64,000 nucleotides of DNA from Fibrobacterota bacterium (lineage in GTDB: Bacteria > Fibrobacterota > Fibrobacteria > UBA11236), in NCBI GenBank assembly GCA_019509785.1, contig JAEKLQ010000026.1, forward strand, positions 1 to 64,000, read 5' to 3'. Position numbers and translations under genes: made by a program. The stretch's first letter is position 1; every line of letters begins with the position of its first letter. The notes under the pieces were generated by a model. That model searched no databases. It saw only the letters and a list, made by a program, of their open reading frames with translations, and was not told the origin of the DNA. Positions 7,701-62,451 of the stretch are shown in pieces.

Positions 7701-8399
7701 GGCGATCCGCTCGCGGTAACGCGCGGCGAGTTCCCCGACCCCGGGCCCGCCGTCCAGCAATTCCCGCAGGCTCACCACCAATAGCAAGCCGTCGAGCGCG
7801 GTGCGTTTGCCTTCCTTGGAAAGCTGCGCCAGCCAATATTGGAATTCGTCGTCGCCCTCTTCGCCGGTGGCGTAGCGATTCGGGGCCTCCAGGAAAATGC
7901 CCTGGTTGCTGAACCACCACTGCGAGAAATGCTGGGTCTGCTTGGCGAGTTCCGCCGACGAAGGGAAGCGCCGCGGGAAATGGATGCCCGCATGCTCCAG
8001 CAGGCTGGTCTTACCCGAGCCCGGGCCGCCGAGCACGAGATAGAACCGGAAGACGTCGAGCGGATCCTGGCCCATCTTGGCCTTGCCCTTACCCGATTGC
8101 TTCAGGATGTCGAGGGCGGAACGGGTCTCGGCCTTGAGCGGTTCCAGCCAGGTTTTGGCCGCGGCCTCGGCTTCGAAGGGATTTGCGGTCGTCTGCTCTT
8201 GCCCCTTGAGTGCTTTCTTAAGCCGTAGGATGGCGAGGATCAGGGCCGTCAGCCCCGCCAGCAGCAACGGGAGCGCCGTCCACATCAGGCGCAGGCCGAT
8301 GCCCTTGGCCCCGAAGACCGGCAGCAGGAAGAACAGGATCAAGGCGATCAGGAATCCCGCGACCAGGATCCAGAAGGCGGCGGACTTGAAGATCTTCAT
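4800..8399 (-). CDS. tssM: TssM (IcmF), T6SS inner-membrane protein
   Basis: A 1199-residue IcmF-family protein that anchors the T6SS trans-envelope complex with TssL and, where present, TssJ. Two transmembrane helices near residues 8-28 and 38-58 are followed by a cytoplasmic domain with an intact Walker A motif GGPGSGKTS (124-132); a third helix near 435-457 leads to the long periplasmic part ending in the conserved C-terminal beta domain. Family length is usually 1100-1300. The start overlaps the tssL stop by 4 bp (ATGA), so the two are translationally coupled. No tssJ lipoprotein gene is seen nearby. Confidence 0.96.
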   Translation of the reverse strand: MKIFKSAAFWILVAGFLIALILFFLLPVFGAKGIGLRLMWTALPLLLAGLTALILAILRLKKALKGQEQTTANPFEAEAAAKTWLEPLKAETRSALDILKQSGKGKAKMGQDPLDVFRFYLVLGGPGSGKTSLLEHAGIHFPRRFPSSAELAKQTQHFSQWWFSNQGIFLEAPNRYATGEEGDDEFQYWLAQLSKEGKRTALDGLLLVVSLRELLDGGPGVGELAARYRERIALAMGTLRLELPIYLVFTHTDIIPGFREYFENMQEPENHQVFGATFALRGNLAPARQRFEREYKKIWESLQARTPQRLSQAPDPSRRKQIFLFPNEFGAAQERIAVFVEQLFKDTMRRERAAFRGFFLTSVMPSQASDFAKANDPFADAGGEAAHFLDHKAKLRGPAASKSPDSLSRPRSMFTFLLFGGVLKNDKSLAQIPGYRLGSLSRQSLIASSIMAVAGLAILVYGLIGFFGSRAYLSSVAKSVSEAGRLQWRSQTDFRAEYDVLGALLAKIKEIRADGGGHLPPGFRHSSEALELASTAHTIELNRMIALDGLRALGASLEMGSKYDNPSQHAHLRENLKLYLLLTTEGQSHLKEIKAAELSELLSPLWAQEAANKFGAENLPGNLESGLEDHAAQYADRFMRQQTPPLAKSDAPLVQTARQSLLGTPSIEGLYASIVASEDPARDLGLTEMGVPPDAALKSNAKVRAFYTKAAFDDDAMDRLAQGAAEPHQRDWVLGEGAVAALPPEMQDQKQLYRALVDKYYQEYAAEWMHLLQSLSVRLPGEPGQASGKLSGFASATQGLPAVLSRLLVETNLLAPPPAGTGAVEKKLGKAGQLLSMALEARDADKRRLKEQFKFVEELNGGPSGGGLLQDYFTAARGLSEVLGKLAQAGDNGGEVMDAAQALFAGKAESPMNNCWNAAKGITARYESQTWLTPLLENPVRDVAGYLANAAGSQLEAAYKSKVVSFYEANLKGRYPLVKSGGNEANLEDLKAFFAPDKGPFTQFYSGKLAPFVKVEEETISPRHWNGIRIGFAPGALEGISKAYSVQRRLYSDAGLRIYNLNVTLAESRNTAKVTFRLGEDKIAVKPGEGQARFTFRWPNENSYKGAEILVDNVNGGSEGRRVDGAWGFNRLLDGARAFAPRPGGLTAKWRFNVAGKYDVDVTMEGNIPDRENPFTTPDFYKFDLAPSLIGGDGRVSME

Positions 8400-9253
8400 G
8401 GCGCGGGGACCTTGCTTTGCAGCCGCTCAATCGTCTCGCGGGCCGGATCGAGCGCCCCGTCGCTGGCGAACATGAGCACTCCGTACAACAACGCGGATAC
8501 GACCAGGAAGATCGAAGTGGCGATGACCAGTCCCCGCCCGCTCCGTTCTTGTCCCTTCACACCGGGATGGACGTAGGCCGAAGGGGAAACGGCCTTGGGC
8601 GGTTCGCCCTTGATGCCTTCGATCCGCTTCAGCAGGTTGCGGACCACGTTGGGCAAGACCTCCGGTCCCGAAAGGCGGTAACGTCCCTGGAACCCCAGGG
8701 CCAGGCAGAGGTAGTACACCTCGATGATCTCGAGGTTGCGCTGCATATCGGGCAGCAAGGCTTCCAGGCGCTTGAAGAAATTCTCGCCCGCCAGGCTGTC
8801 GTTGAAATAGGTCACCGCCAGAGGATCGGCGATCCAGGTCTCCCGGCAATTATTCTCGGTATTGACGATGGTTTCGTCGATGAAGGCGGCCAAGGCGTAG
8901 CGGGCCTGCTCCGCCGCTTCGGGGGCTTTACGGTAGGTCAGGGCGGAGCGTTCGAAATCCTTGAAGTACGAGTTCAGCAAACGCCGCATCTGCTCGGGCT
9001 GGCCCAGGTTGGCCGTCTCCCGGATCTTGACGCCGAGAAGGAGAACGTCGGTCGCCAGGATGGCCAGGCTCGGGGCTTCCTTGTCCCCGCCCGCCGACCC
9101 GAACAAGGTTTGGCCCGCGCTGGCCCCGCCTTGGCCGAACAAGGTTTGCACGGCGCCATCGGCCCAATCCATGCCGCCCCCCTGGCCGTACGCCGTGCGC
9201 ATGGCGGGCTGGAGGGGTTGTTGCAGGACGCGTTTCTGTCCGGGTTGCATCAT
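8396..9253 (-). CDS. tssL: TssL (DotU/IcmH), T6SS inner-membrane protein
   Basis: A 285-residue DotU-family protein. The N-terminal ~55 residues are Gln/Gly-rich and disordered, carrying two copies of TLFG (residues 37-40 and 49-52). The DotU domain follows (about 60-230, with the conserved ALAAFIDETIVNT and EVYYLCLALGFQGRY stretches), then one C-terminal transmembrane helix (about 242-264) and a short periplasmic tail with no peptidoglycan-binding domain. TssL pairs with TssM in the membrane complex. In Agrobacterium, phosphorylation of a threonine in the TssL N-terminus controls secretion through an FHA protein; whether the TLFG threonines play that role here is inference. Confidence 0.96.
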   Translation of the reverse strand: MMQPGQKRVLQQPLQPAMRTAYGQGGGMDWADGAVQTLFGQGGASAGQTLFGSAGGDKEAPSLAILATDVLLLGVKIRETANLGQPEQMRRLLNSYFKDFERSALTYRKAPEAAEQARYALAAFIDETIVNTENNCRETWIADPLAVTYFNDSLAGENFFKRLEALLPDMQRNLEIIEVYYLCLALGFQGRYRLSGPEVLPNVVRNLLKRIEGIKGEPPKAVSPSAYVHPGVKGQERSGRGLVIATSIFLVVSALLYGVLMFASDGALDPARETIERLQSKVPAP

Positions 9254-39262: not shown

Positions 39263-40468
39263 ATGCCCCTCATGAAGGATCCGCTGTTATCCGAATACGA
39301 TTTCGCGGTGATCGGCGCCGGCCCGGCCGGGCTGCTGGCGGCGATCAACCTGGCGGGCGCCAACGTGGGTCGTTCCAAGCCCTATTCGATCGCGCTGCTC
39401 GATAAACGCGATCCATGGCGCGAACCCGTCGCGTGCGGCGAAGGCGTCTCGGCCCAGGGCCTGCGGGATCTGGTCCCCAAGCTGGAGCCGGCCTGGATCC
39501 GCGAGCCCATCGACGGGGTCGTTTTCGTTTCGCCCAATGGCACGCGAGTGACTTTCCAGCGCGAAGGAAGCGGCCTGCTCATCGATCGCGCCCTGATGCA
39601 CAAGAACCTCGCCGAGGAGGCCCGACGCCGCGGCGCCCACTGCAATTTCCGGGCGCGCGCCACGGCGGTATCGCGGCTAGAGAACGGCCGCCGCCGGATC
39701 AAGATCGAAGGGGAAGACAATCAGGAGATCAAGGCGCGCGTGGTCATCGATGCCAGTGGACCCGGAGCTGGATTCGGGGCGGGGGAAAAGATCACCCAAG
39801 GCGACTTCGACGTCGAACCTTCCCTCTTCGCGCTGTTGAGCGGCATCGAGTATCCCGTGAACTATATCCAGATGTTCTTCGGGAAGAATTACGCGCCCGG
39901 CGGCTACGCTTGGCTCTTTCCCCGGGACAAGCACATCGCCAACGTAGGCTTGGTGGTCGGCAAGAAGTTCGCGCGGGAGGCCCCCGCGCGGAAGGCCCTC
40001 CAGGACTTCCTGGCCAGGACCTATCCCAAGGCCAAGGTAGAGCTTTATCATGGCGGAGCCATCCCCTGCGGTTATACCGCCGATCCCCTCGCCGTGGATA
40101 ATCTCTTCAAGGCCGGGGATGCGGCTAACATGGTGAATCCCATCAGCCGCGCGGGCATTCTCGAAGCCATGAAGGGCGGCCAACTGGCGGCCCAGGCGGC
40201 CCTTCAGGTTATCGAGTTGGGCGACGAAACGGAGAAGGCGTCCCACTACCGGGCCTATAAGGACGGATGGGATGAGGCCTACGGTAACGCCAACATCCGC
40301 ATCCACAAGGCCAAGGCCGCATTCATGGGTATCTCCGACGCTACCTTCGATAAGGCGGCGGGAAGCCTGGCGAAGATCCCGGCGGAAAAGGTGACCATGA
40401 GCCGCATTTTCTTGACCACCTTGTGGTCGACGCCGTCCCTCATCTGGAAGATGCGCAGCCTGATCTAA
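39263..40468 (+). CDS. Geranylgeranyl-reductase-like FAD oxidoreductase
   Basis: 401 residues. FAD-binding DFAVIGAGPAGLLAAINLA at the N-terminus, CGEGVS at about 55-60, GGYAWLFPRDKHIANVGLVV in the substrate domain and GDAANMVNPISRAGI near the C-terminus define the GGR/digeranylgeranylglycerophospholipid-reductase group. The enzymes reduce prenyl double bonds; in bacteria the substrate may be a menaquinone side chain or polyprenyl lipid (inference). Starts 10 bp after ung; overlaps the convergent lipoprotein by 4 bp. Confidence 0.85.
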   Translation: MPLMKDPLLSEYDFAVIGAGPAGLLAAINLAGANVGRSKPYSIALLDKRDPWREPVACGEGVSAQGLRDLVPKLEPAWIREPIDGVVFVSPNGTRVTFQREGSGLLIDRALMHKNLAEEARRRGAHCNFRARATAVSRLENGRRRIKIEGEDNQEIKARVVIDASGPGAGFGAGEKITQGDFDVEPSLFALLSGIEYPVNYIQMFFGKNYAPGGYAWLFPRDKHIANVGLVVGKKFAREAPARKALQDFLARTYPKAKVELYHGGAIPCGYTADPLAVDNLFKAGDAANMVNPISRAGILEAMKGGQLAAQAALQVIELGDETEKASHYRAYKDGWDEAYGNANIRIHKAKAAFMGISDATFDKAAGSLAKIPAEKVTMSRIFLTTLWSTPSLIWKMRSLI

Positions 40469-41310
40469 AAGACCGCGGTCGATGGCTTGCCAAGGGCGGC
40501 CTGGGCGGGCCAGTTCACCGGATTTTCCTTCCAGACCTTGTCCGAATTGAAGGACTTGAAGAAGCTGTCCCATAGGATTTGGTACAGATCCGCATTGTGT
40601 TCCTGATCGATGACGACCACCGGGTCGCCGGAACGATCCGGGAAAGCGGGGGCCTGGGATAATTGGATGGCCGAGAGCCATTTTTTCGCGAAGAAGATGA
40701 ACTCCAAATCGTAGGCATCGCCATGCTTCCACTTCTCCAAGGTGGTTTGCGTGTAGACGAGGTTGATTTTGTAGTCATTCGGGAATTGGCAGACGAAACG
40801 GATTTCCCGGCCACCAGTAAACATAGTGCCCTTGATGTAGCCCGGGTTCCGGAACCCGGCGAAATCGAGGGTATCCGGACGCAAGCTGTCATGCAGGGGA
40901 ATCCGCGATTCCAACTTCATGAGGGTCCAATCCCCCGGCGGCACCTGCACGGGCGGCAAGACCGCGGATGAATCCTGGCCGGTGAAATCGATGTTCTGGC
41001 CCAAGGAATCGGGCACCTTCCAGATGCGGCCATCTTCATTCGCCGAGGTAACGTAGTTGACCTCCACCACGTTGAACCGGAAATGCAGGATGCGGATGGT
41101 ATCCGATCCGCCAACGGACGCCGATGCCAGTTTCGGCAGGGCGGGAGGATCGTCGGCATAATCGATGGTGAAGGTCGCGTTGACCTGCTGGGTCTTTCCG
41201 GGATTCCCCACTTCGGTAAAGCATCCCGTCAACGCCGTGAAGGCGCATAGGGCGGCGAAGTAAGCCGCGCAGAAGGCCGCGCGCAAGAATATGCCCTTCC
41301 CTTTCTTCAC
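40465..41310 (-). CDS. Fibrobacter-type lipoprotein beside TIGR02147 regulator
   Basis: 281 residues. The signal peptide ends in LTGC, with the mature protein starting CFTEVGNPGK, a start I associate with lipoproteins of Fibrobacter. The rest is strand-rich, for example ILHFRFNVVEVNYV and PGDWTLMKLESRIPLHDS. It begins 2 bp after the TIGR02147 gene stop, so the two are co-transcribed. Function unknown. Confidence 0.8.
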   Translation of the reverse strand: MKKGKGIFLRAAFCAAYFAALCAFTALTGCFTEVGNPGKTQQVNATFTIDYADDPPALPKLASASVGGSDTIRILHFRFNVVEVNYVTSANEDGRIWKVPDSLGQNIDFTGQDSSAVLPPVQVPPGDWTLMKLESRIPLHDSLRPDTLDFAGFRNPGYIKGTMFTGGREIRFVCQFPNDYKINLVYTQTTLEKWKHGDAYDLEFIFFAKKWLSAIQLSQAPAFPDRSGDPVVVIDQEHNADLYQILWDSFFKSFNSDKVWKENPVNWPAQAALGKPSTAVF

Positions 41311-41312
41311 CT

Positions 41313-42164
41313 TCAGGCTCCGCGATTCAAGGGGAAGAGTTGGATGTTGACCTGGACCACGCGCTCGCCTTGGCCGTCCTCCACGGCGAAATTACGCAGC
41401 TCCTTGCGCATCAATTGGATTTGCTTCTTAAGCCGGGGGAAATCCCCTTCCCGTATCGCGAAGCTGACCGCCGAGATATCCCGTTGCTCCGGGTCCACCG
41501 CGTCCACCGCCTTCATGGCCAAACCCATCATCTGGAGATGGTAGTTCCTCACGAAGAGCGGGAGGACTTCGTCGTCGGTGGTGATGGAATCGTCGACGGC
41601 GCGGAAGCCATTGGCGGTGCGCTTGATCAATCCGGCTTCCAGCAGGAGCTTCAGCGACTCCTGCGCTTCGCGCGGTTCGATCTTCGGCTGCAATTGCCCC
41701 GCGATCCATTCCGGGCTGTTCCGGAATTTCCCCAGCGCCAGCATTTCCCGGATGGCGCTATGGTACCAGGTATTGAAGATCCGGAATTGGCTGGCTTCCA
41801 GCTTCTTCAATCCGTTCGGCTTTCCGGACTTCAGCAGCCTTTGGTAGTAGACGTCCTTCTCATCCAAGGTCTTGGATTGGTTGAAGAAAACCAGGTTCTC
41901 GAAATACTCGGCGCGGTCCTTGGGCAGCTTGAGCGCCAGGGTCAGCTTCAAAAGGCTTTTCTTGCTCAGGTTCCTTTTACCGTCCAGAACGTAACGCAAT
42001 AAGGTATGGCTGGAAAACCCGGCTTCCTTGGCGAAGGCCCGCACCGAGAAGCGGGGATCGCTTTCCTTCCGGGCGGCATGCGTATCCGAAAGGTATTGGC
42101 GGTAATTCGTATAGTTGATGACATCGGGCGGCGGGAGGGCCGGCTTCCGGGGCGGGGTATCCAT
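41313..42164 (-). CDS. TIGR02147 family protein, putative regulator
   Basis: 283 residues. The opening VINYTNYRQYLSDTHAARKESDPRFSVRAFAKEAGFSS, the helix-turn-helix-like LLRYVLDGKRNLSKKSLLKL, and EYFENLVFFNQSKT are the hallmark of TIGR02147, a paralogous family abundant in Fibrobacter; the C-terminal DUF4423-like part follows. DNA binding is inferred from the N-terminal helices. Co-transcribed with the following lipoprotein, which may be its target or partner. Confidence 0.93.
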   Translation of the reverse strand: MDTPPRKPALPPPDVINYTNYRQYLSDTHAARKESDPRFSVRAFAKEAGFSSHTLLRYVLDGKRNLSKKSLLKLTLALKLPKDRAEYFENLVFFNQSKTLDEKDVYYQRLLKSGKPNGLKKLEASQFRIFNTWYHSAIREMLALGKFRNSPEWIAGQLQPKIEPREAQESLKLLLEAGLIKRTANGFRAVDDSITTDDEVLPLFVRNYHLQMMGLAMKAVDAVDPEQRDISAVSFAIREGDFPRLKKQIQLMRKELRNFAVEDGQGERVVQVNIQLFPLNRGA

Positions 42165-42208
42165 TACCGGAAAAGATACCCGTAGGTGAGGCTATTCCAG
42201 GCGGGATT

Positions 42209-43417
42209 TTACGGGAGGCCGGAAACAATTGTGCCCAGCCCCGGATTTCCGGCGATGTTCTTAGACATTTTGAGGAGGTTGAGCGCTTGGCGGCGGTTTA
42301 CCGGTCCGAGGCTACGGCCCGCTAGGTCGACGACGCGGGGATCGGGGGATAGGGCCGAAACGGGGCGGCTGGGTAACGCCAAGGTTACGGTTCCCCACGT
42401 CAGGGTCGCTCCGGCCCCGCTCTTCGCGTCGCTGATTTCCGCTTGGAGCTTTTCCGGATCGGTGAAGGCGAGGGCCGCGTAGGCGGGCGTAAAGGATTGG
42501 CCGGCCCCCAAGGTATTGCCTTCGCACTTATCGAACTTGTTGTTCCTCACCGTAATGGCGGTGAAGGTGGGATCGAAGCCGGTGTCGATGGGGGTTTTCT
42601 GCCCGATGAAGGCATTGCCCTCCGCCAGTATGTTGGACCGATGGCAGGCGCGGATGCAGTAGGCTTGGCCCGGGTCGGCGCTGGTGAAAAGGCAATTGGC
42701 GACGTGGAGCTGGGCGAAACGCACGCGGGGCATGCGCTCGGCGACGCCGTCCGCCCACCACGTCTTATAAAAGGTGATCAGGAGATGGGCCGAGTCTTCC
42801 GCAGCATTCTTATCCGAGTGGCCGATGAGGTTGCAAAAGCGGTGGGATTTGCCGGAAGTTCCCGAGGCATACGATTTGGAAGTATAAGAGAACTTGGTCC
42901 AACTCACGGTGATATAGTCGCATGCATGGGTGATATCCAGATTGCCGTCTTCGCCGTCGGAAATGTCCAGATGATCCAGCCAAATGTTCTTGGCTTCGCT
43001 TTCCAGATGCACCGCATCCAGCCCGTCGACGTCGTAGGCCCCGGGGCCCTGGATTTTCAGGTTGCGGAGGATGATGTTGCCGACGCTTTTATGGATGTCG
43101 AAGCCGCCGTTCACGGTCGCTCCCGGAAGGCCCAGGATGGATTTATCCGAAGCCACGACCACGCGGTCCCCGTCCGATTGGCCGCTGGTGCCCGCGTTCC
43201 CCATGACGCCGTTTACCCAGATGATGTACTTGCCTTCCATCTTCGCGTACTTCTGGAGATCGGCCATGGTGCTCACGGTTACCTCGGTGCCGCCCGCGCC
43301 CCCCTTGGTCCCGCCGTTGAGGGATGCCCATCCCCCGGGTTGGTCCGTTACGGATGCCGACCAAAGCCAAGTCGCCAGGGAAAAATGGAGCAAGCAAGCC
43401 TTTATTATCCCGTGCAT
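42209..43417 (-). CDS. Exported pectate lyase, PL1 family
   Basis: 402 residues from the ATG at 43417, preferred because GGAAGGA lies 7 nt upstream. A signal peptide (IIKACLLHFSLATWLWSAS) precedes a parallel-beta-helix lyase: VNGGFDIHKSVGNIILRNLKI, the calcium-site DAVHLE and NIWLDHLDIS, and the YKTWWADGVAERMPRVRF stretch. It cleaves pectate or related uronans by elimination. The C-terminal RVVDLAGRSLGPVNRRQAL resembles sorting or adhesion tails of secreted enzymes and is not part of the fold. Confidence 0.9.
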   Translation of the reverse strand: MHGIIKACLLHFSLATWLWSASVTDQPGGWASLNGGTKGGAGGTEVTVSTMADLQKYAKMEGKYIIWVNGVMGNAGTSGQSDGDRVVVASDKSILGLPGATVNGGFDIHKSVGNIILRNLKIQGPGAYDVDGLDAVHLESEAKNIWLDHLDISDGEDGNLDITHACDYITVSWTKFSYTSKSYASGTSGKSHRFCNLIGHSDKNAAEDSAHLLITFYKTWWADGVAERMPRVRFAQLHVANCLFTSADPGQAYCIRACHRSNILAEGNAFIGQKTPIDTGFDPTFTAITVRNNKFDKCEGNTLGAGQSFTPAYAALAFTDPEKLQAEISDAKSGAGATLTWGTVTLALPSRPVSALSPDPRVVDLAGRSLGPVNRRQALNLLKMSKNIAGNPGLGTIVSGLP

Positions 43418-43565
43418 ACTTCGTCCTTCCGATTCACGGCGGCGAAACCGGGTTCGCATCCGTGGGATGGAAAGTAGGCAGGGAATATCCTTCAGGACCC
43501 CGGGAAATCAGGCTCCGTGGGCACCTTTGTGTCCAGGGACCGGGATGGAAGATGGGGGATAGGCC

Positions 43566-45220: not shown

Positions 45221-46219
45221 ATGGATTTAGCCTCATTCAGGACCGTCCTCGAAACCGCCTGGAGACGGCGCCGCGCGTTGATGGATCGAACCGATGCCTT
45301 CCGGGTCCTGAACGGCGCGGCCTCGGCGGCCCCGGGCCTGATCGTGGATCATTTCGCGGGCTGGTTGGTGGCCTACGCCTACGCAAAGGATCCTTTTTTA
45401 TTGCGTCCGGGTTTCGCCGAGGTCTTGGCGGAAACCACCGGCGCGCGGGGACTCTCCCTCATCGATCGCGGGAACAAAGGCGAGGCCGGCCGCGACGATG
45501 GGCGCATGCTGCTCGGGGAAGCGCCGGAGTCCGCCGAGGTGCGCGAGGGAAAGCTGCGGTTCCGCGTCTATCCGCGGCATCCGCGCAACGTGGGGCTTTT
45601 CCTGGATACCCGCGAATTGCGGGAGTCATTGGCGGAGGCGTGTACGGGCCTGGACGTCCTCAATCTGTTCGCCTATTCCTGCTCGCTCGGGATGGCCGCC
45701 GCCGCCGGTGGCGCGGCGGCGGTCGCCAACGTGGACGTATCCGCCCGATACCTGGGATGGGGCAAGGACAATCTGGCCCTGAACGGCCTCCCTGCCGACC
45801 GCATGCGTTTCGTGAAAATGGACAGCGGCAAGTACCTGGAATGGGCCGCCAAGAAAGGCATGGCCTTCGACGCCATCATCCTGGATCCGCCCAGCTTCGC
45901 CCGGAACCAAGAAGGGACCTTCGCCTTCGCGAAGGATTACTTCCGCTTGGCTGGGGCCTGCGCGCGGTTGTTGCGGCCGGGCGGGACGCTATACGCCATG
46001 ACGAATTACGGGGGCATCGCGCCCGCGCGCTTCCGCGCGCGCTTGGACGAGGTCCTACGCGCCGAAGGCCGTACGCCCTTGTCCCTCGAGCGTATCTCCT
46101 TGCCCGATGACTTCGACGCCGCCCGCCCCCCTTCGGAAGTCGATGAGCGCGCGGTTCCGCTGGGCATGGGCGCGGCGGTAGAAGGCACCATGCTCGGATT
46201 CGCCGCCCGAACGCGCTGA
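45221..46219 (+). CDS. SAM-dependent rRNA methyltransferase-like protein
   Basis: 332 residues of the RlmI/RlmK-type class I methyltransferase group. VYPRHPRNVGLFLDTRELRESL leads the Rossmann domain, LDVLNLFAYSCSLGMAAA is the SAM site, and ILDPPSF the catalytic motif. It lacks the N-terminal PUA domain of full-length RlmI but keeps the EEHD-like substrate domain start (RVLNGAASAAPGLIVDHF). Probably methylates cytosine or guanine of 23S rRNA; exact target uncertain. Confidence 0.88.
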   Translation: MDLASFRTVLETAWRRRRALMDRTDAFRVLNGAASAAPGLIVDHFAGWLVAYAYAKDPFLLRPGFAEVLAETTGARGLSLIDRGNKGEAGRDDGRMLLGEAPESAEVREGKLRFRVYPRHPRNVGLFLDTRELRESLAEACTGLDVLNLFAYSCSLGMAAAAGGAAAVANVDVSARYLGWGKDNLALNGLPADRMRFVKMDSGKYLEWAAKKGMAFDAIILDPPSFARNQEGTFAFAKDYFRLAGACARLLRPGGTLYAMTNYGGIAPARFRARLDEVLRAEGRTPLSLERISLPDDFDAARPPSEVDERAVPLGMGAAVEGTMLGFAARTR

Positions 46220-46234
46220 TTTCCCCACTTTAAG

Positions 46235-46279
46235 TTTGCGATCTTTCAGGTTCGACACTGTCGCAACCGCGATCGCAAA
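46235..46279. promoter_or_regulatory. 9-bp inverted repeat before the unknown gene pair
   Basis: TTTGCGATC (46235-46243) and its exact reverse complement (46271-46279) are separated by 27 bp, in the 96-bp gap before the unknown genes. An AT-rich stretch GATTAGTTATTTT follows as a possible -10 area. A regulator site is possible; the right arm is part of GCGATCGC, a common genomic palindrome. Confidence 0.4.
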
Positions 46280-46315
46280 TGATTAGTTATTTTCCCGCGA
46301 GAAGCAGGAGCCTGA

Positions 46316-47659
46316 ATGTCCTTCCAGGTCGCACTTAATTCGCGCAATGTGCTGGTGCCCTTGGGCCTCGAGGATCGCCAAGGCGATCGCCTCCATCATG
46401 CGCTGTCCCGCCTGGACACCGCCACGGCGCTGGTAATCCAGGTTTCCGCCGCGGGCTCTTTCGGGCAAGAATTCATCCCGCTGCGCATCCGCCGAGGCGA
46501 CACCGAATCTTACGCGGGCGAAGCCTGGGAATTGCGCGTGCAAAAGGCCTCGGGGGATCTGCATGCATATTACCTTGGCATACCCGATAGCCTGTTCGCC
46601 GTGACGGAAAGCGCGGAACCGCCGCGATCGCTTTCGGTGCAGGTGGTCGGCACTTCGCCGCTTACCGGCCGCGAGGATTTCACCGGCGGCGTGGACGTGA
46701 TCTTGCAGGCCCAGGTTGAACCGCCCCTAATCCCCGGCTTCCTGGCGCTGGCGGAACGCTTCTATCCCACTTTGCTGCCCCATAATTTCATCGGCCAGCG
46801 CGCCTTGGCCGAATTCGAATTCGGCGGGAAGCGTAGCCTCATCCTGATGGCGGGCCTGGAGGCGGATCCCGCCGACCGCATCCCCGTCAGCCTAGGCAAG
46901 CATTGGGACGCCAAGAATTGGGTCCAGGCTGTGGTGGAAAACCTGACGCCCATGGGCGCGGGTCCGGCTTGGTTCTCGATCCAGGGCGGATGCTTCTACG
47001 GCCGCAACCATCGCATCTCGCATTGGTTCGGAGGCGGGATCGGCCTGGATGAAAAAGGTTTCCGGCAAGCGGCGGGGGAGCGCATCCGCGGCATGGGGCC
47101 GAGCGGGAACGGGGCCTGGGTATTCTGGTTGGAACCGAACGGGGAACCGGAAGGCCATCTCGCGACCCTGCGGAATCCCGCTGCCGCCGCGAGCCGTCCC
47201 ATCGCCATCCGCCACCCCATGCTGCATCGGGTGTTGTCCGCTCCTTCCCATGTCCCGGCCGCCGCGCGCGGCGAGCTATCCGGTGGATTGCCCTTGGCAT
47301 CCGCCATATCCGCGCTGTCCGGGGTGGCCGCGATTCTGGCCTCCCATCAAGACACCTTGCAACGGGCCCAGGCCGAGCCGGCCCATGCGCTTTGGTCCGG
47401 GCGGGCCAACCCGGCCGTGGCGGCCGCTCTCGACCTGGAGGAAGGCGCGGCAGGTTCCCTGCCGCCGGCTCCCGCCGCGCAAGACCGCCTCGCCGAGGGC
47501 ATCCGCGCCTTATACCGCGAGCACGGCGAAACCTTGCGGAGCCTGGAGGCCCACTTCGACGAGACGTTCGGATACTCCGCTTGGGACGCCGTGGGGAATT
47601 CCCTGCGCGAGGCGTTGGCCGGTTCCCTGGCCGAGGCCCAGTCCCGCGCCCCGGCGTAA
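46316..47659 (+). CDS. Unknown protein, related at its N-terminus to the next gene
   Basis: 447 residues, no family recognised and no signal or membrane segment. The first ~105 residues (MSFQVALNSRNVLVPLGLED, then QEFIPLRIRRG, GEAWELR and AYYLGIPDSLFAV) correspond to the whole fold of the next gene's product. The middle (about 130-270) is beta-rich with WFSIQGGCFYGRNHRISHWF; the last ~170 residues are helical and Ala-rich. AGGAG lies 4 nt before the ATG. Encoded beside a membrane pseudokinase on the opposite strand. Confidence 0.8.
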   Translation: MSFQVALNSRNVLVPLGLEDRQGDRLHHALSRLDTATALVIQVSAAGSFGQEFIPLRIRRGDTESYAGEAWELRVQKASGDLHAYYLGIPDSLFAVTESAEPPRSLSVQVVGTSPLTGREDFTGGVDVILQAQVEPPLIPGFLALAERFYPTLLPHNFIGQRALAEFEFGGKRSLILMAGLEADPADRIPVSLGKHWDAKNWVQAVVENLTPMGAGPAWFSIQGGCFYGRNHRISHWFGGGIGLDEKGFRQAAGERIRGMGPSGNGAWVFWLEPNGEPEGHLATLRNPAAAASRPIAIRHPMLHRVLSAPSHVPAAARGELSGGLPLASAISALSGVAAILASHQDTLQRAQAEPAHALWSGRANPAVAAALDLEEGAAGSLPPAPAAQDRLAEGIRALYREHGETLRSLEAHFDETFGYSAWDAVGNSLREALAGSLAEAQSRAPA

Positions 47660-47673
47660 GGGATTTCCGGTCA

Positions 47674-48141
47674 ATGAGCTTTATCGTCCTGGCCAATAGC
47701 ACCCGCGTCATCCTGCCCTTGCAGACCCGCCTCGAAGGACCCGCGGCCACGCCTGCCCTGGCAGGCTTGTTGGTTTCCCAGGCCAAGGCTTCGGGCCATT
47801 GCCAGCAATCTTTCATTGAGCTCGGGGCCCCGGGCCTGCCGCGGCCTTTCCGGGGGGAACGCTGGAGCTACGAATGGCGCGGGGACGGGGCGGAGAACCT
47901 GCTCGCCTTATGGTTGGGCTTCCCCAACGTGTTCTTTTCCGGCGGCATCGATCCGAATCTGCGCGTAGCCATCGAGGCCTTGGGCCGCCCCCAGGCCGGT
48001 CCGGGAATGCTGCGCTCCATGGCGCGCATCTCCATCACCGTGAAGGACGGCGGGCTCGTTCCAGGGGCGCCGAGGACGGAGGGTGAGCCGGTCTGGATTC
48101 CCGAGGGACGTAAAAGCTATCCGGAGGCAGGCGGCGAATAA
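47674..48141 (+). CDS. Unknown small protein, paralogue of the preceding N-terminal domain
   Basis: 155 residues from the ATG at 47674, 14 bp after the preceding stop. It begins MSFIVLANSTRVILPLQTRL and has QSFIEL, GERWSYEWRG and ALWLGFPNVFFSG, in the same order as in its neighbour (QEFIPL, GEAWELR, AYYLGIPDSLFAV). The end of the protein diverges. No known domain. The tandem layout suggests duplication, and the pair probably interacts or shares a ligand. Confidence 0.75.
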   Translation: MSFIVLANSTRVILPLQTRLEGPAATPALAGLLVSQAKASGHCQQSFIELGAPGLPRPFRGERWSYEWRGDGAENLLALWLGFPNVFFSGGIDPNLRVAIEALGRPQAGPGMLRSMARISITVKDGGLVPGAPRTEGEPVWIPEGRKSYPEAGGE

Positions 48142-48206
48142 GGTTGAGCCGCGAAGAGGGAGAAGCGAAAAAGGGGAAGCGAAAAGGATAAGCCGGAACG
48201 CCCTCG

Positions 48207-50402
48207 CTACAGCTTCGATCTCAACTTCAACGCGAAACCGTTCCTGGGATTGATCGCCAGAATCTTGTCGACCGCGTCCTTGGCTTGGGCCTTCATCCCC
48301 ATGGCCTGGAAGGTCACCGCCAATCCTCCCAAGGCGGACACCTTTTGCTTTTCGGAGACGCCTTCGGCGATCAGGGCTTTTCCGTACAGCAGGTTCGCCT
48401 CGGCGGTTCTGCCCAAGTCGTTCAGGTCGTCCGCGGCTTTGAGCCGCTCCCCGGCGGAAGCAGGCCAATCCCGGGCTTGCACCATGCTCATCAGGGAAGC
48501 CTCCCTCTCCGGAGTAACATGAGAGTTACCCTGGTAGGAAGACTTGGGCGGCTTAGGCGCGGACGGCGCGCTGGCCTCCGGAGCGGAGCCGGGACGAGCG
48601 GGCTCCACCGGCATGGGTGGCTCGGAATAACCCGTAGCCGGTCCGGTATTCGCCCCGGCCGGCGCGGCCTGGTTCTTTCCGGACTCCCCTCCCTCCGGAT
48701 AAGGGGGCCGGTCCGCGGAGGGTTGCGGGGGGACCGCGGTCGGTTCGGGTTGGCTGGAAGCGCCCGGGCCCGTCGCCGTCGTCGGGCGGGCGTTGGCCGC
48801 GGGTCGAGGGGGAAGGGCGGGGACGGATTCATCGGATACCGCCACCGGGGTTCCCGAGGGCTTGGCTTTTTCGGCGGCATTGCCGCGGAGGAAAATGAAC
48901 AAGGCCGCCAGGCCAGCGAGGATGGCCACGCCGCCCGCGATGCCGAACAGGAGCCTGAGCTTGGCTTTGGCCGCCGCGGCGCTCCCGTCCGGATTGTAGA
49001 TCCCGGTGCGGTTGTCGCCCGCGCCCTTGAAGCCATAGGTGGTGAAGCCGCCCGAACCGATCGAGCCGGCGGCTTCCATGGGATCCTTCTCCAGGGAAGA
49101 CAGGCTTACGGACATGGGTTTGTTCTGCGGCGGGGGCTCGTTCCGGAACGGGGATTTGGAACCGGAACGGGGTGTTACGGGTTTACCGAATAGGGTCCCC
49201 GGTTGCTCCAGATCGGCGAGGCCGCCGGGGGGCGCGAAAGGCGCGCTTTCGCGGCGCGGGGGTTCGGATCTCGCTACGGGCTGGCCGGAGGGTACGGCCG
49301 GGGCTCCGAATAAGGTGTCGCCGCCCGGCTTGCGCGGATCCGGGAAGAATCCGTCGGCGTTTTTACCAGATCCCGGGCTCTCGGCGCCGAATGGTTGTTG
49401 TCCGCCGGCCGACGGCATCGCCGGTGCGGTTTCGGAAGGAAAAAAATCGAAAAAGGAATCGCTATCGGCGGGCTTGGCGGGCGTGCCGAACAAGGTGGGC
49501 TCCTTGGCGGCGACGGGTTCGGCAGGCATCGGAGGGGCCACCGGGGCGGAAGCGGCGGCCGGAGCGGGGCGATCCCCCATGCGATCCTGTAGCCGTTGCA
49601 TGACTGCTTGTAGTTCCCACATCGCATCGGCGAAAGCCCCCGCGTCCTGGAAGCGCTCTTCGGGCTTGGGATGCAAGGCTTTACCCAGGAATAAGGCCAG
49701 ATCGCGGTCGATACCGCGCGCATCGTTGAGGGTTTGGGCGGGATTGGAGGAGGGGTGTTCGCCTTTGACCAGGCGATACAGGAGGCCCGCGATGGCGAAA
49801 AGATCGCTGCTGGGATAGCTGAGGAAGCCCGCTCCTCGGCCCGCCATCTCGGGGGCCCGATAGCCCCGGTACTCGGGGCGAAGGGGAAGGGGATCGGGGG
49901 TCATTTCAGTGTTACCCAAGGCGCGCGGGTCGGGATCGCAAAGCTTGGCGACGACCGGGCCCGCGATCACGTTCCCGGGATGGATGTTCAAGTGGCGCGT
50001 ACGCTCATGCAAGGCCCCCAGACCTTGGGAGACTTGCCACAGCAGCTCCAGTCCGCGGGCGAAATGCCCGGGCTCGCCCCGGTGCTTACGGGCCCAATCC
50101 TCGAAGGATTCGCCCTCGACGAAGGATCTGGCCACGAAAACCTGTCCCATTTCCTCCTGGACGTCGAGGCAGGCGGCCAGGTTGTCATGGCCTATCTCGG
50201 TCATGATCACGGCCTTGAGGAAGAAGTCCGGGGCCGCCATCAGCTTGGCGGAGACCTCGGGACGGTAGATCTTGACCGCCAGCCGGCCGGCGTTGCTATT
50301 GGCCAGGTAGGTGACGGAGGCCGGGCCTTCGCCGGCCATGCCATCGACCACGTACTTGTTCGCGATGACCTCGCCGTGGGAATATTGGGGATGTGCGGGC
50401 AT
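48207..50402 (-). CDS. Membrane pseudokinase with TLFG repeats and TPR-like C-terminus
   Basis: 731 residues. Residues 12-270 have a Ser/Thr-kinase fold: glycine loop GEGPASVTY, Lys44 in LAVKIYR, and APE at 183-185. The catalytic HRD is HLN (137-139), the following Lys is His141, and DFG is DPD (156-158), so catalysis is unlikely. A disordered Pro-rich linker holds three TLFG motifs (303-306, 363-366, 403-406). One transmembrane helix (about 483-506) leads to a second disordered stretch and a TPR-like domain (about 640-731), probably periplasmic. Convergent with the two unknown genes. Confidence 0.88.
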   Translation of the reverse strand: MPAHPQYSHGEVIANKYVVDGMAGEGPASVTYLANSNAGRLAVKIYRPEVSAKLMAAPDFFLKAVIMTEIGHDNLAACLDVQEEMGQVFVARSFVEGESFEDWARKHRGEPGHFARGLELLWQVSQGLGALHERTRHLNIHPGNVIAGPVVAKLCDPDPRALGNTEMTPDPLPLRPEYRGYRAPEMAGRGAGFLSYPSSDLFAIAGLLYRLVKGEHPSSNPAQTLNDARGIDRDLALFLGKALHPKPEERFQDAGAFADAMWELQAVMQRLQDRMGDRPAPAAASAPVAPPMPAEPVAAKEPTLFGTPAKPADSDSFFDFFPSETAPAMPSAGGQQPFGAESPGSGKNADGFFPDPRKPGGDTLFGAPAVPSGQPVARSEPPRRESAPFAPPGGLADLEQPGTLFGKPVTPRSGSKSPFRNEPPPQNKPMSVSLSSLEKDPMEAAGSIGSGGFTTYGFKGAGDNRTGIYNPDGSAAAAKAKLRLLFGIAGGVAILAGLAALFIFLRGNAAEKAKPSGTPVAVSDESVPALPPRPAANARPTTATGPGASSQPEPTAVPPQPSADRPPYPEGGESGKNQAAPAGANTGPATGYSEPPMPVEPARPGSAPEASAPSAPKPPKSSYQGNSHVTPEREASLMSMVQARDWPASAGERLKAADDLNDLGRTAEANLLYGKALIAEGVSEKQKVSALGGLAVTFQAMGMKAQAKDAVDKILAINPRNGFALKLRSKL

Positions 50403-52008: not shown

Positions 52009-52254
52009 TCAGACTTCGGCGTCGTCATCCAGGGCGGTCGCGCCCGACCGGAATTCTTCCAGCAAAGCATTCGCCTCGCCGACCTGGGCATCATCCACCA
52101 TTACGTCCACGCCGTCGGTAAGGTCGATGGAGGGGAAGAGTCCGTTCGCGTCGTCGGTACGCACTTGCGCCTCGATGCCCCCCTCCTTCAACAGGTTGCA
52201 GATGATGATGGCTTGGGTTGAGCTCGAGGCTTTGTATACCGGGACCAGACTCAT
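52009..52254 (-). CDS. DUF2007-type small protein
   Basis: 81 residues from the ATG at 52254, which overlaps the preceding stop (ATGA) and has GGAGGGAG upstream. VPVYKASSSTQAIIICNLLKEGGIEAQV and the later VDVMVDDAQVGEANALLEEF fit the DUF2007 ferredoxin-like fold (putative signal transduction). Its role is unknown. Third gene after gyrA. Confidence 0.85.
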   Translation of the reverse strand: MSLVPVYKASSSTQAIIICNLLKEGGIEAQVRTDDANGLFPSIDLTDGVDVMVDDAQVGEANALLEEFRSGATALDDDAEV

Positions 52255-53330
52255 GGTTCTCCCTCCGCGTACAGATGAACCGTACCTCGGTAATATAAAT
52301 CCACGGAGAGATGGAGAGCCGGATCCTCGCTGCGGAATGCCGGCAAGAATTCGCCGGGCTCGGCCTGGCGCCGCACCAAAGGCAGGAATTCCGCGTATGG
52401 CACTTGCCCGCCTTTGAAATCCTGGATTTGCCACGAGGGCCAGGTGAAGGCGGAAGGCAGGCGTTGCGACAGTTTGACCAAAAACATCTGCCCTTCGCCG
52501 AGCAGCATCTGCGACAGGTCCTTGGCGTAATCCACTTGCGATGCGTCGGGAACCTTGCCGATCGCCTTGCGAATCTCGGCCAGGGATGGCGATCCCTGTT
52601 CATCGAGCCACGCCTGCAATCGCAGCGGCTTGCGGCCGTCCACCCGCACCAGCCAATGCGTATCATCGCCGGGACTGAAGCATACCGGCTTCCCGCTTTG
52701 CTTGGCTCCCCCGGACTTGGGGCGCTTCGCTACGGAAGAGCCTTGGGATGATCCCGGCATGTCCTTGCATGCCACGTGCAGCCATTCCGACGAGGTATCG
52801 AGGTAGGCAAATAGCCCCGGCGAAAAGCGAAGGGGGCCGGCGACCGGGACGCGGGCGATGGGCGGTTCCGCGCGGAAGACGAGAAAATAACGCCCGCGTT
52901 CCACCCCGGAACCCAGCCAGCCACGCTCGCCTCCGTAGCCTTTCAGCAACCATTCCTGCTGCAGGCCCGGGAACCGCTTAACCACTTGCGAATCCAACGC
53001 GCCCGACGTTTCATGCCAGGCGGCGCCATTGCCGTACTCCTGGGTCAGGGCCGCGAAGCTATCGGAAGGGATCTCATCCGGTTGATCGTAACGGACCCCG
53101 GCCAAGCCTTCCGGATTCCAATCGAGCCGGAGCGCGAAGGAATCGCCATGGGCCAGGCGATAGAACCCGATCGGTTTGCCGTCCTTGCGTTCGGCCAACT
53201 TCCAGGATTGCTTGAGATCGGCGGTGTCGGGGAAATGGACCGCTTGGGATGGCCGCGCCAGGAATAAAGACAGGGCTATGGCCAAGGAGGCCATGGGGCG
53301 GAAGGCAATGGTGCGCCGCGCCCCCGACAT
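52251..53330 (-). CDS. Exported protein of unknown function
   Basis: 359 residues. Signal peptide (MASLAIALSLFLARPSQA, second Met at 13 could also start). The mature protein is a beta-rich N-terminal part (about 35-180) and a helical region with LAEIRKAIGKVPDASQVDYA, ending in a strand-rich tail. No domain recognised. Starts 2 bp after the gyrA stop, so co-transcribed with it. Confidence 0.7.
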   Translation of the reverse strand: MSGARRTIAFRPMASLAIALSLFLARPSQAVHFPDTADLKQSWKLAERKDGKPIGFYRLAHGDSFALRLDWNPEGLAGVRYDQPDEIPSDSFAALTQEYGNGAAWHETSGALDSQVVKRFPGLQQEWLLKGYGGERGWLGSGVERGRYFLVFRAEPPIARVPVAGPLRFSPGLFAYLDTSSEWLHVACKDMPGSSQGSSVAKRPKSGGAKQSGKPVCFSPGDDTHWLVRVDGRKPLRLQAWLDEQGSPSLAEIRKAIGKVPDASQVDYAKDLSQMLLGEGQMFLVKLSQRLPSAFTWPSWQIQDFKGGQVPYAEFLPLVRRQAEPGEFLPAFRSEDPALHLSVDLYYRGTVHLYAEGEP

Positions 53331-59744: not shown

Positions 59745-60818
59745 ATGCCGAAGATCCATAATTTCAGCCCCGGACCCTCGATTCTCCCGCGCCAGGCCAT
59801 GGAAGCGGGCTCCCGCGCCTGCCTCGACTTCAACGGCACCGGCCTCTCCCTTTTGGAGATGTCGCATCGCGGTAAGGACTTCATCGCGGTGATGGATCAG
59901 GCCGTGGCCTTGGTCAAGGAACTGCTAGGCGTTCCCGCGGGCTATTCGGTGCTCTTCCTGCAAGGCGGGGCCAGCATGCAATTCGCCATGATTCCCTACA
60001 ACCTGCTGGACGAGGGCGAGACCGCGGCCTACGTGGACACCGGCACTTGGGCCAACAAGGCCTTGAAGGAAGCCAAGCTGTTCGGCAACGTGAAGGTGGT
60101 GGCCTCTTCGAAAGAACAGAACTACAACTTCATTCCCAAGGGCTACGCCATCCCGGCGGACGCGAAATATTTCCACGTCACCTCGAACAACACCATCTTC
60201 GGGACGCAGATGCAGCACTTCCCGGAATCGCCGGTTCCGATGGTGGCGGACATGTCGAGCGACATCTTCAGCCGCCCGGTGGACGTCTCCAAGTTCGGCC
60301 TCATCTACGCCGGGGCGCAGAAGAACATGGGCATCGCGGGCACGACCCTGGTCATCCTGCGCAATGATCTGCTCGGCAAGGTGAAACGTAAGATCCCTTC
60401 CATGCTGGACTATAAGCTGCACATCGAGAATGAGTCGATGTACAACACCCCGCCGGTGTTCGCCGTTTACGTGGCGATGGAAACCCTGAAATGGGTGAAG
60501 CAGATGGGCGGAGTGGCCGCCATGCAGAAGCGCGACGAAGAGAAGGCGCAAAGGTTGTACGCCGAGATCGACGCCAACCCGCTCTTCAAGGGCACCTGCG
60601 CGGTGGAGGATCGTTCCCGCATGAACGTTACCTTCGTGATGCAGAAGCCCGAGCTGGAAGACGCTTTCAACAAGGCGGCCGAGGCCGCCAACCTCTCCGG
60701 CCTGAAGGGACATCGCTCGGTGGGCGGTTTCCGCGCGTCCATCTATAACGCCCTGGAGCTCGAGAGCATCGACGCGCTGGTGGCGGTGATGCGCGACTTC
60801 GCCCGCAAGCATGGTTAA
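59745..60818 (+). CDS. serC: Phosphoserine aminotransferase
   Basis: 357 residues. Forms 3-phosphoserine from 3-phosphohydroxypyruvate and glutamate. [14 protein letters not shown] opens the protein, [13 protein letters not shown] and [11 protein letters not shown] follow, and the PLP-binding Lys is in [13 protein letters not shown]. The C-terminal [16 protein letters not shown] closes the family pattern. Its last 8 bp overlap the next gene. Confidence 0.96.
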
Positions 60819-62451
60819 TGTGGCGGCGGCCTTCGCCGCCACCCTGTCCCTCTCCCTCTCATTGTCCTACGGGATCCCGGCGGCCGCCGGGGATCCCGCT
60901 CGTCTTGCGCCTGATTCTGCGCTTACGGACACCCTGAACCGCTGGCCCTCGTCGGCTTCGCCTGCTACGGCATTGCCTCCGGCGGCTTCGCCTTCGGCGA
61001 CTCCGGCTCCCTCCGCGGCTTCCGCTCCTTCCGCTCATCCCGCCCCCGACACCACCCGTAACATCCACGATACCCATGCCGAGCAAGAGCGGTTCCTGAA
61101 TACGGTCACCGGGTCCCACCAGAAGGCCGATCCGCCGGAGTGGCGGGCCCGCCCGCCTTATCCCGGCGCTCCCTTGCTGCTCAGCCTGCCGGTGGCCGAC
61201 TTCCCCTATACCTTGCGGGGAGGTTTCGATTCCCCCAGCATGCGGCAAAGCCTGATGGCGTCGGCGGCTTTCACGCAGTGGGCCGATCAATCCCTGGTCT
61301 GGCTCTGGTCGGGAGCGGAATCCGGTTTCCTCCGCAATCTCCTCACCTATACCTCCCTGGGCTTATTCGCCTGGGTTTCCGATTACCTCCCCTTGGGGGA
61401 CGCCTGGTTGCATGAGGAATGGCACCGGGCCGTATTCACCCGGCGCGGGATCAAAAGCTATAACGGCATCTATGATTTCGATCTGGGATCGAGCGCCATT
61501 CCCGTGGAACACGTCGAGGATCGGGATTTGGCCGCCCTCAAGGACCAGCATCCGGCCGAGTTCACGCGGTTGATGGAAGCCGGGGGCGAGGGGGAGACCG
61601 AGGCTGCGCGCGAAATGCGCCGCCGGAATTTTTTCCTGGGGCGGCAGTCCTATTCCGACCGCATCGGTTGGTGGGTGACCGGGCTGAATTCCTCTTTCTA
61701 CATCTGGACCAGTTCCATCGATGTTTTCGACAAGGATCTGCAAGATGAAAACGCGCGCGAAACGGATCCGCGCCAACGCGATTTCACCGGGCTCGATTAC
61801 CGCGCCTGGGTTTACGATCTGCGCCATCCGGACGTGCCCTATGCGGCCGGGCCGCGCGGCCGCTTGCATCCTTCCGGAACCGGTTTCGATCGCTATCTCT
61901 TGAACGGCGACCTGACCGGGGATGAAAGGGATTTCCTTAAGTTGCAGGCCGGCCTATCCCTATTGAATTTGATCTCAGGGCAGAACCTGGGCTGGGACTG
62001 GCTGCCGGGGGCCAATCCGTGGGGCGGCCAGGGATACTTGTGGAACTTCGGCCTCACCCATCACCTCACGCCTTTCGGTTACGCCGTGGGCGGGGAATTC
62101 CTGGCGCGTCAAGGAAAGGCGGATTGGATCTTCACCGCGCAGGGCATGGCGAACGCCACCTTGGTGCTGCCCTGCCTGGGCGCGGAACTGTTCCGTTATC
62201 CCCTCGCTTTAGGGCGCGAACCGGTATTCCTTTCCTTGTCCCTGTCCGCCTGGTTGCAGCCCGAAGCGCAACGCTTCCGGTCCCGGTCCGCCGAGCCCGG
62301 CGGCTATGGCTCGTTGGGCGCGGCCTTTCCCTTAGGCCAGAGCCTGGAGATTTTCGCCGAAGGCGACGCCAAGACCGATGGATGGGAGCCGGGAGTGGTT
62401 TACCTGGATGCGGCGGCCGAAGGCCGCTTCGGGATCCAGATGCGGTTGTGA
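60811..62451 (+). CDS. Envelope protein with HEEWH motif, unknown
   Basis: 546 residues. A signal-like N-terminus is followed by a Pro/Ala/Ser-rich stretch (about 45-80). At 201-205, HEEWH fits the HExxH zinc motif, between hydrophobic segments [28 protein letters not shown] and the following RRGIKSYN. Later parts are rich in short strands with Gly and aromatics ([34 protein letters not shown]), as in outer-membrane barrels. It could be a membrane metalloprotease or an outer-membrane protein with an accidental motif. The ATG overlaps the serC end without a visible ribosome site. Confidence 0.7.

Follow-up and report, generated by a model that had tools for sequence, protein, structure and literature searches.

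The window analysed here is a stretch of 64,000 nucleotides from a 5.4 Mb draft genome (106 contigs) of a Fibrobacterota bacterium. It contains two adjacent genes on the forward strand, encoding the proteins P1 and P2, followed by a third gene that is transcribed towards them and encodes the protein P3. The sequence-only reading of this region had described two genes 14 bp apart coding for proteins of 447 and 155 residues, and both open reading frames, as well as their spacing, were recovered at these positions. The features of the locus are as follows:

46316-47659, + strand: P1, an orphan protein of 447 aa with an ATG start, composed of the shared domain, an alpha/beta region and a helical tail
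46316-46717, + strand: first copy of the shared domain (P1 residues 1-134), an all-beta Ig-like sandwich in the model
46730-47245, + strand: middle region of P1 (residues ~139-310), alpha/beta in a low-confidence model
47294-47656, + strand: C-terminal region of P1 (residues ~327-447), which a low-confidence model predicts to be helical
47674-48141, + strand: P2, 155 aa with an ATG start, a copy of the shared domain standing alone with a short tail
47674-48048, + strand: second copy of the shared domain (P2 residues 1-125)
48207-50402, - strand: P3, 731 aa, converging on P1 and P2, with a degraded Ser/Thr kinase domain, a hydrophobic segment and a TPR-like end

A gene encoding a SAM-dependent methyltransferase is located 96 bp upstream of P1 on the same strand, and the wider surroundings are ordinary, with G6PD-like (named from its translation), pectate lyase, gyrA, surE, hisS, TPR and DUF2007 genes. 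Scanning of positions 46150-48300 revealed no sigma-70-like promoter, and the three terminator-like sites found there, for 2.1 expected, say nothing either way. P1 exhibits neither a signal peptide nor a clear transmembrane segment, and no 19-residue window of transmembrane strength was detected in P1 or P2 on the Kyte-Doolittle scale (maxima of 1.8 for P1, 1.1 for P2 and 2.4 for P3).

Elsewhere in the window, three ORFs of 281 aa (40465-41310, - strand), 359 aa (52251-53330, - strand) and 546 aa (60811-62451, + strand) have no match in Pfam (E 0.001) or NCBIfam (E 1); the second one is conserved in the genus. The pectate lyase/DUF4423 stretch (40465-43459), located between the reductase and G6PD genes, is absent from this place in the orthologous loci extending across it (L010, L012, L013 and L014), corresponding either to a local insertion in the window genome or to a loss in the others.

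A domain shared by P1 and P2

The motifs on which the sequence-only reading based its claim of a common domain are all present in both proteins and in the same order, i.e., MSFQV/MSFIV, NSRNVLVPL/NSTRVILPL, QEFIPL/QSFIEL, GEAW/GERW and LGIPDSLF/LGFPNVFF (P1/P2), and three types of comparison agree with this claim. BLASTP aligned P1 and P2 with 31 identical residues out of 96 (E 6e-7), hhalign matched the two six-row families with a probability of 93.8 (E 1.7e-7), and the local alignment score of 81 was reached by none of 2000 shuffled sequences (mean 28, maximum 58). The similarity extends past the motifs noted at first, up to about residue 134 of P1 and residue 125 of P2 in the joint alignment of 12 P1/P2 sequences, which contains 16 invariant columns, so that almost the whole of P2 has its homologous counterpart in the first ~134 residues of P1. 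No internal repeat was detected in P1 when its middle and C-terminal regions were compared with the N-terminal domain and with each other, or when the middle region was compared with P2 (163, 573, 904 and 413 of 1000 shuffles scored as well), indicating that the shared domain is present once in P1. At the level of sequence comparison, P1 and P2 are thus a real paralogous pair produced by duplication.

In each of the six genomes of the genus, the two genes are intact and look constrained at the protein level. The orthologues in the five other genomes share 52-70% identity with P1 and 71-78% with P2. The fraction of differing sites is 0.47-0.60 at third codon positions and 0.14-0.37 at first and second ones, i.e., about two to three times higher at the third. 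Across the six genomes, the distance from P1 to P2 is 14, 13, 12, 12, 12 and 2 bp, for 96-161 bp between the methyltransferase gene and P1.

AlphaFold2 models of both proteins are of modest confidence. For P1 (six sequences, mean pLDDT 54), the N-terminal ~130 residues are predicted to be all-beta, with pLDDT values mostly of 60-80, and are followed by an alpha/beta middle region (pLDDT below 65) and a helical tail of low confidence. The P2 model (12 sequences, including the P1 rows; mean pLDDT 64.5) has an all-beta core from residue 11 to 125, mostly at 60-86. The lists of Foldseek and VIA matches are full of Ig domains for both models, the best alignments being to Ig variable-type domains over ~100 residues with an rmsd of 3.2-3.4 Å. 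The highest VIA Z values (7.5 for P2, 7.0 for P1) stay below 8 and, given the modest confidence of the models, possibly reflect just a common arrangement; the best Foldseek matches have E-values of 0.041 for P2 and of 4.4e-4 for P1, the latter at a TM-score below 0.2. The alignment of both models to Ig-like beta-sandwich domains (~100 residues, Z ~7) comes with only 5-12% sequence identity, and the proteins have no extracellular or signal-peptide features. These predictions are compatible with an all-beta Ig-like sandwich in both proteins. Different folds for the two N-terminal regions, which would speak against a common domain, were not seen; this is a weak test, and the P2 alignment contained P1 rows.

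The middle region of P1 is more conserved than the protein as a whole (mean column identity of 74% vs 67%) and harbours invariant positions in DPADR-like, KHW, GGCFYGRN and HWFG motifs. This conservation would fit a putative enzyme, P1 acting through the invariant His, Asp, Arg, Trp and Cys of this region, with P2, a detached copy of the N-terminal domain, as a regulatory or inhibitory subunit. However, neither a known family, nor a PDB sequence, nor a confidently predicted fold of the region backs catalysis, and we consider this reading unlikely.

Distribution of the family

As noted from the sequence, P1 and P2 belong to no recognized family: neither protein has a match in Pfam, NCBIfam, PHROGs or PADLOC. 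Searching Pfam with six orthologues of each protein gave nothing above noise (best E-value 0.019); the matches to GCSF (E 0.033), NNH1 (0.019) and RcnB (0.74) each concern a single one of six members and were discarded as noise. Profiles of P1 and P2 have no match among PDB sequences, except for profile A2 at E-values of 0.13-0.9, and these matches were dropped, as they were not repeated with profile A4. Among the titles and abstracts listed by literature searches on Fibrobacteres pseudokinases, Fibrobacterota protein kinases and Fibrobacteres orphan domains, none describes the pair.

Among 167 genomes of the phylum, a profile of the joint domain matches six, with two places in each that always correspond to P1 and P2, and none of the other 161. 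The separate P1 and P2 profiles each match seven of the 167 genomes, namely the six of the genus and one weak match. These weak matches were read as due to chance: the one in genome G090 (18.2 bits) overlaps a long ORF on its own strand but in another frame, and the one in genome G104 (19.2 bits) was not found again when the joint profile was used at E 0.05. A search with the single P1 sequence retrieved six of 61 related genomes, all from one genus. Scanning 84,980 species genomes with a single sequence, which beyond the phylum reaches close relatives only, retrieved two loci, both from the same group. As far as searched, P1 and P2 are therefore confined to one genus of the 40 in the phylum and, judging from these searches, are an orphan domain family restricted to that genus.

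Such a narrow distribution could have resulted from the recent acquisition of the pair from a phage or plasmid, followed by fixation in the ancestor of the genus. Yet no relatives were found in phages for P1, in plasmids for either protein, in PHROGs or PADLOC, or in viral contigs searched with profiles A1 and A4, and the flanks consist of ordinary syntenic housekeeping genes. An origin of P1 and P2 from phages, plasmids or defence systems was rejected on account of the lack of relatives in those collections, and recent acquisition appears very improbable.

The neighbouring protein P3 and the genomic context

P3 matches the Pfam Pkinase model with 37.9 bits (cut-off 31.7) over residues 20-262. 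Its matches to PD-T4-6, MAD6 and PknB in PADLOC and NCBIfam were attributed to generic similarity between kinase domains (45 bits for an NCBIfam cut-off of 460). The protein retains Lys44 as its beta3 Lys and Asp156 as the first DFG Asp, and has Asn139 at the position of the HRD Asp. Pseudokinases have been defined by the loss of at least one of the beta3 Lys, HRD Asp and DFG Asp (PMC12599244); by loss of the HRD Asp, the P3 protein of the window fits this definition and is predicted to be a pseudokinase. The earlier description of P3 as a membrane pseudokinase thus suits the protein of the window, with Asn139 and a hydrophobic segment at residues ~484-505, but not all of its orthologues: the HRD Asp position is occupied by Asn in three, Asp in two, Ser in one and Met in one of seven aligned sequences, so that the two with Asp cannot be termed dead by this residue. 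Weak TPR matches (E 0.049) were detected in the C-terminus.

Between the kinase domain and the membrane segment, P3 has a Pro-rich linker with the motif TLFG at positions 303, 363 and 403, whereas none of 20000 shuffled linkers contained two TLFG. All six P3 orthologues of the genus carry two to three TLFG-like motifs. TLFG also occurs outside P3, with two copies in another ORF of the window (8396-9253, - strand). The linker region (48996-49499, - strand; P3 residues ~302-469) combines the TLFG repeats with a juxtamembrane T-x-[FY]-G-F-[KQ]-G motif, kept across the genus and, for the juxtamembrane motif, also in the more distant genome G010.

The sequence-only reading had suggested that P1, P2 and P3 form a three-part system. 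Each of the six genus genomes does have the three genes side by side, but the reductase, G6PD, methyltransferase, TPR, gyrA, surE and hisS genes keep their order as well, where contigs reach, so the adjacency of the trio discriminates nothing within the genus. A profile of the P3 C-terminus matches 12 of the 167 genomes at E 0.001, five of them weakly, and each of the six genus genomes gives a second weak match. The only clear P3 orthologue outside the genus is encoded by G010, from the same order, and no P1 or P2 was detected anywhere in this genome with the joint profile (79% complete, 350 contigs). This result is mild evidence that the trio is not obligate. Hence, the part of the earlier reading that concerned two proteins with one unrecognized domain is borne out by the sequences, whereas synteny no higher than background leaves the three-part system a guess.

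In G010, the P3 gene adjoins an HD-GYP gene and a FliG/MotA/MotB-like cluster; a link between P3 and this module was dropped, since in the window genome (G000) the module sits on another contig, C22. The cluster has the same gene order at both places (G010, L015:6424-11464; G000, L049:4575-10282), with a protein of ~600 aa containing the FliG middle and C-terminal domains, an unassigned gene of ~360-380 aa, a TPR gene, MotA and MotB. The ~600-aa protein of G010 also has a weak match to the FliF C-terminus. Both genomes each encode in addition a canonical FliG of ~360 aa, so that the cluster looks like a second, possibly non-flagellar, rotary-motor module of Fibrobacterota.

The function of P1 and P2 cannot be read from this genomic context. 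The two proteins could cooperate without any relation to P3, their proximity to it corresponding to a stretch of chromosome that has escaped rearrangement within the genus. The conserved order of the whole region as far as the contigs reach, the other neighbours of the G010 P3 gene, the failure to detect P1 and P2 in that genome and the transcription of P3 towards P2 rather than with it all argue for this explanation. The invariable presence of P1 and P2 beside P3 in six out of six genomes would speak for a tie, yet all six belong to one clade. We give such independence from P3 nearly even chances.

A putative adaptor pair

The tight spacing of 2-14 bp, together with the shared domain, suggests that P1 and P2 are a co-translated duplicated pair. 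We tentatively propose, as a plausible reading that we hold with considerable doubt, that they form a cytoplasmic heteromeric adaptor which, more weakly, may be recruited by the P3 linker. A tandem duplication would have produced P1 and P2, both cytoplasmic and sharing one orphan domain of the Ig-like beta-sandwich type. As in many duplicated neighbours, the two proteins may assemble into a heteromer, their sandwiches pairing with each other or binding a common ligand; the effector function would then fall to the alpha/beta and helical regions of P1, with P2 as a free-standing partner, and the complex would act as an adaptor. Homology, tight gaps, codon constraint, the absence of a transmembrane window, the presence of two copies per genome and the TLFG repeats are all consistent with this proposal. 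The P3 and P1/P2 genes are convergent and hence not part of one operon.

The FHA domain is a beta-sandwich with an 11-stranded fold that binds phosphothreonine, and no Pfam FHA match was found in 12 P1/P2 members at E-values up to 1. In the structure comparisons, the lists for the two models of modest confidence are taken up by Ig domains, although a fold beyond those lists may also fit. A working analogy for the tie to P3 is provided by MviN of Mycobacterium, a dead kinase whose phosphorylated tail is described as recruiting the FHA reader FhaA (PMC12599244). In the MviN case, the dead membrane kinase recruits its cytoplasmic reader through a threonine-containing sequence outside the catalytic core (PMC12599244); P3 with P1 and P2 would share this arrangement, a predicted beta-sandwich being the putative reader. 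The two settings differ in that P1 and P2 match no FHA model and in that P3 ends in a TPR-like region and MviN in a flippase (PMC12599244). P3 also resembles ActPs2, as described in the same source, by the Asn in place of the HRD Asp and by a C-terminal hydrophobic segment (PMC12599244); it differs from pseudokinases of this type by its intact beta3 Lys and first DFG Asp, and by the presence of the HRD Asp in two of seven orthologues.

On the model of MviN and FhaA, the ligand might be the cytoplasmic linker of membrane-bound P3. The conserved T-L-F-G repeats of this linker might serve as the docking site for the P1/P2 adaptor pair and couple it to the C-terminal TPR-like region of P3 across the membrane. 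Several observations count against the proposal: the synteny of the trio does not exceed that of its background, the G010 P3 occurs without P1 and P2 and has a single juxtamembrane TMFG in its linker, TLFG motifs are present elsewhere, and the models have a mean pLDDT of 54 and 64. A genus-specific transmembrane signalling device, similar in principle to MviN-FhaA but with an unrelated reader domain, in which the two Ig-like sandwiches would be paired readers of the T-L-F-G repeats as a multivalent linear motif, seems quite improbable.

To our knowledge, few Fibrobacterota proteins have been studied experimentally. The present analysis adds to this phylum a well-delimited orphan domain family with two paralogous copies at one locus in one genus. 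At present, P1/P2 look like lineage-restricted genes of the usual kind; if the tie to P3 were true, the locus would represent a second, independently evolved case of a dead membrane kinase used as a recruitment platform.
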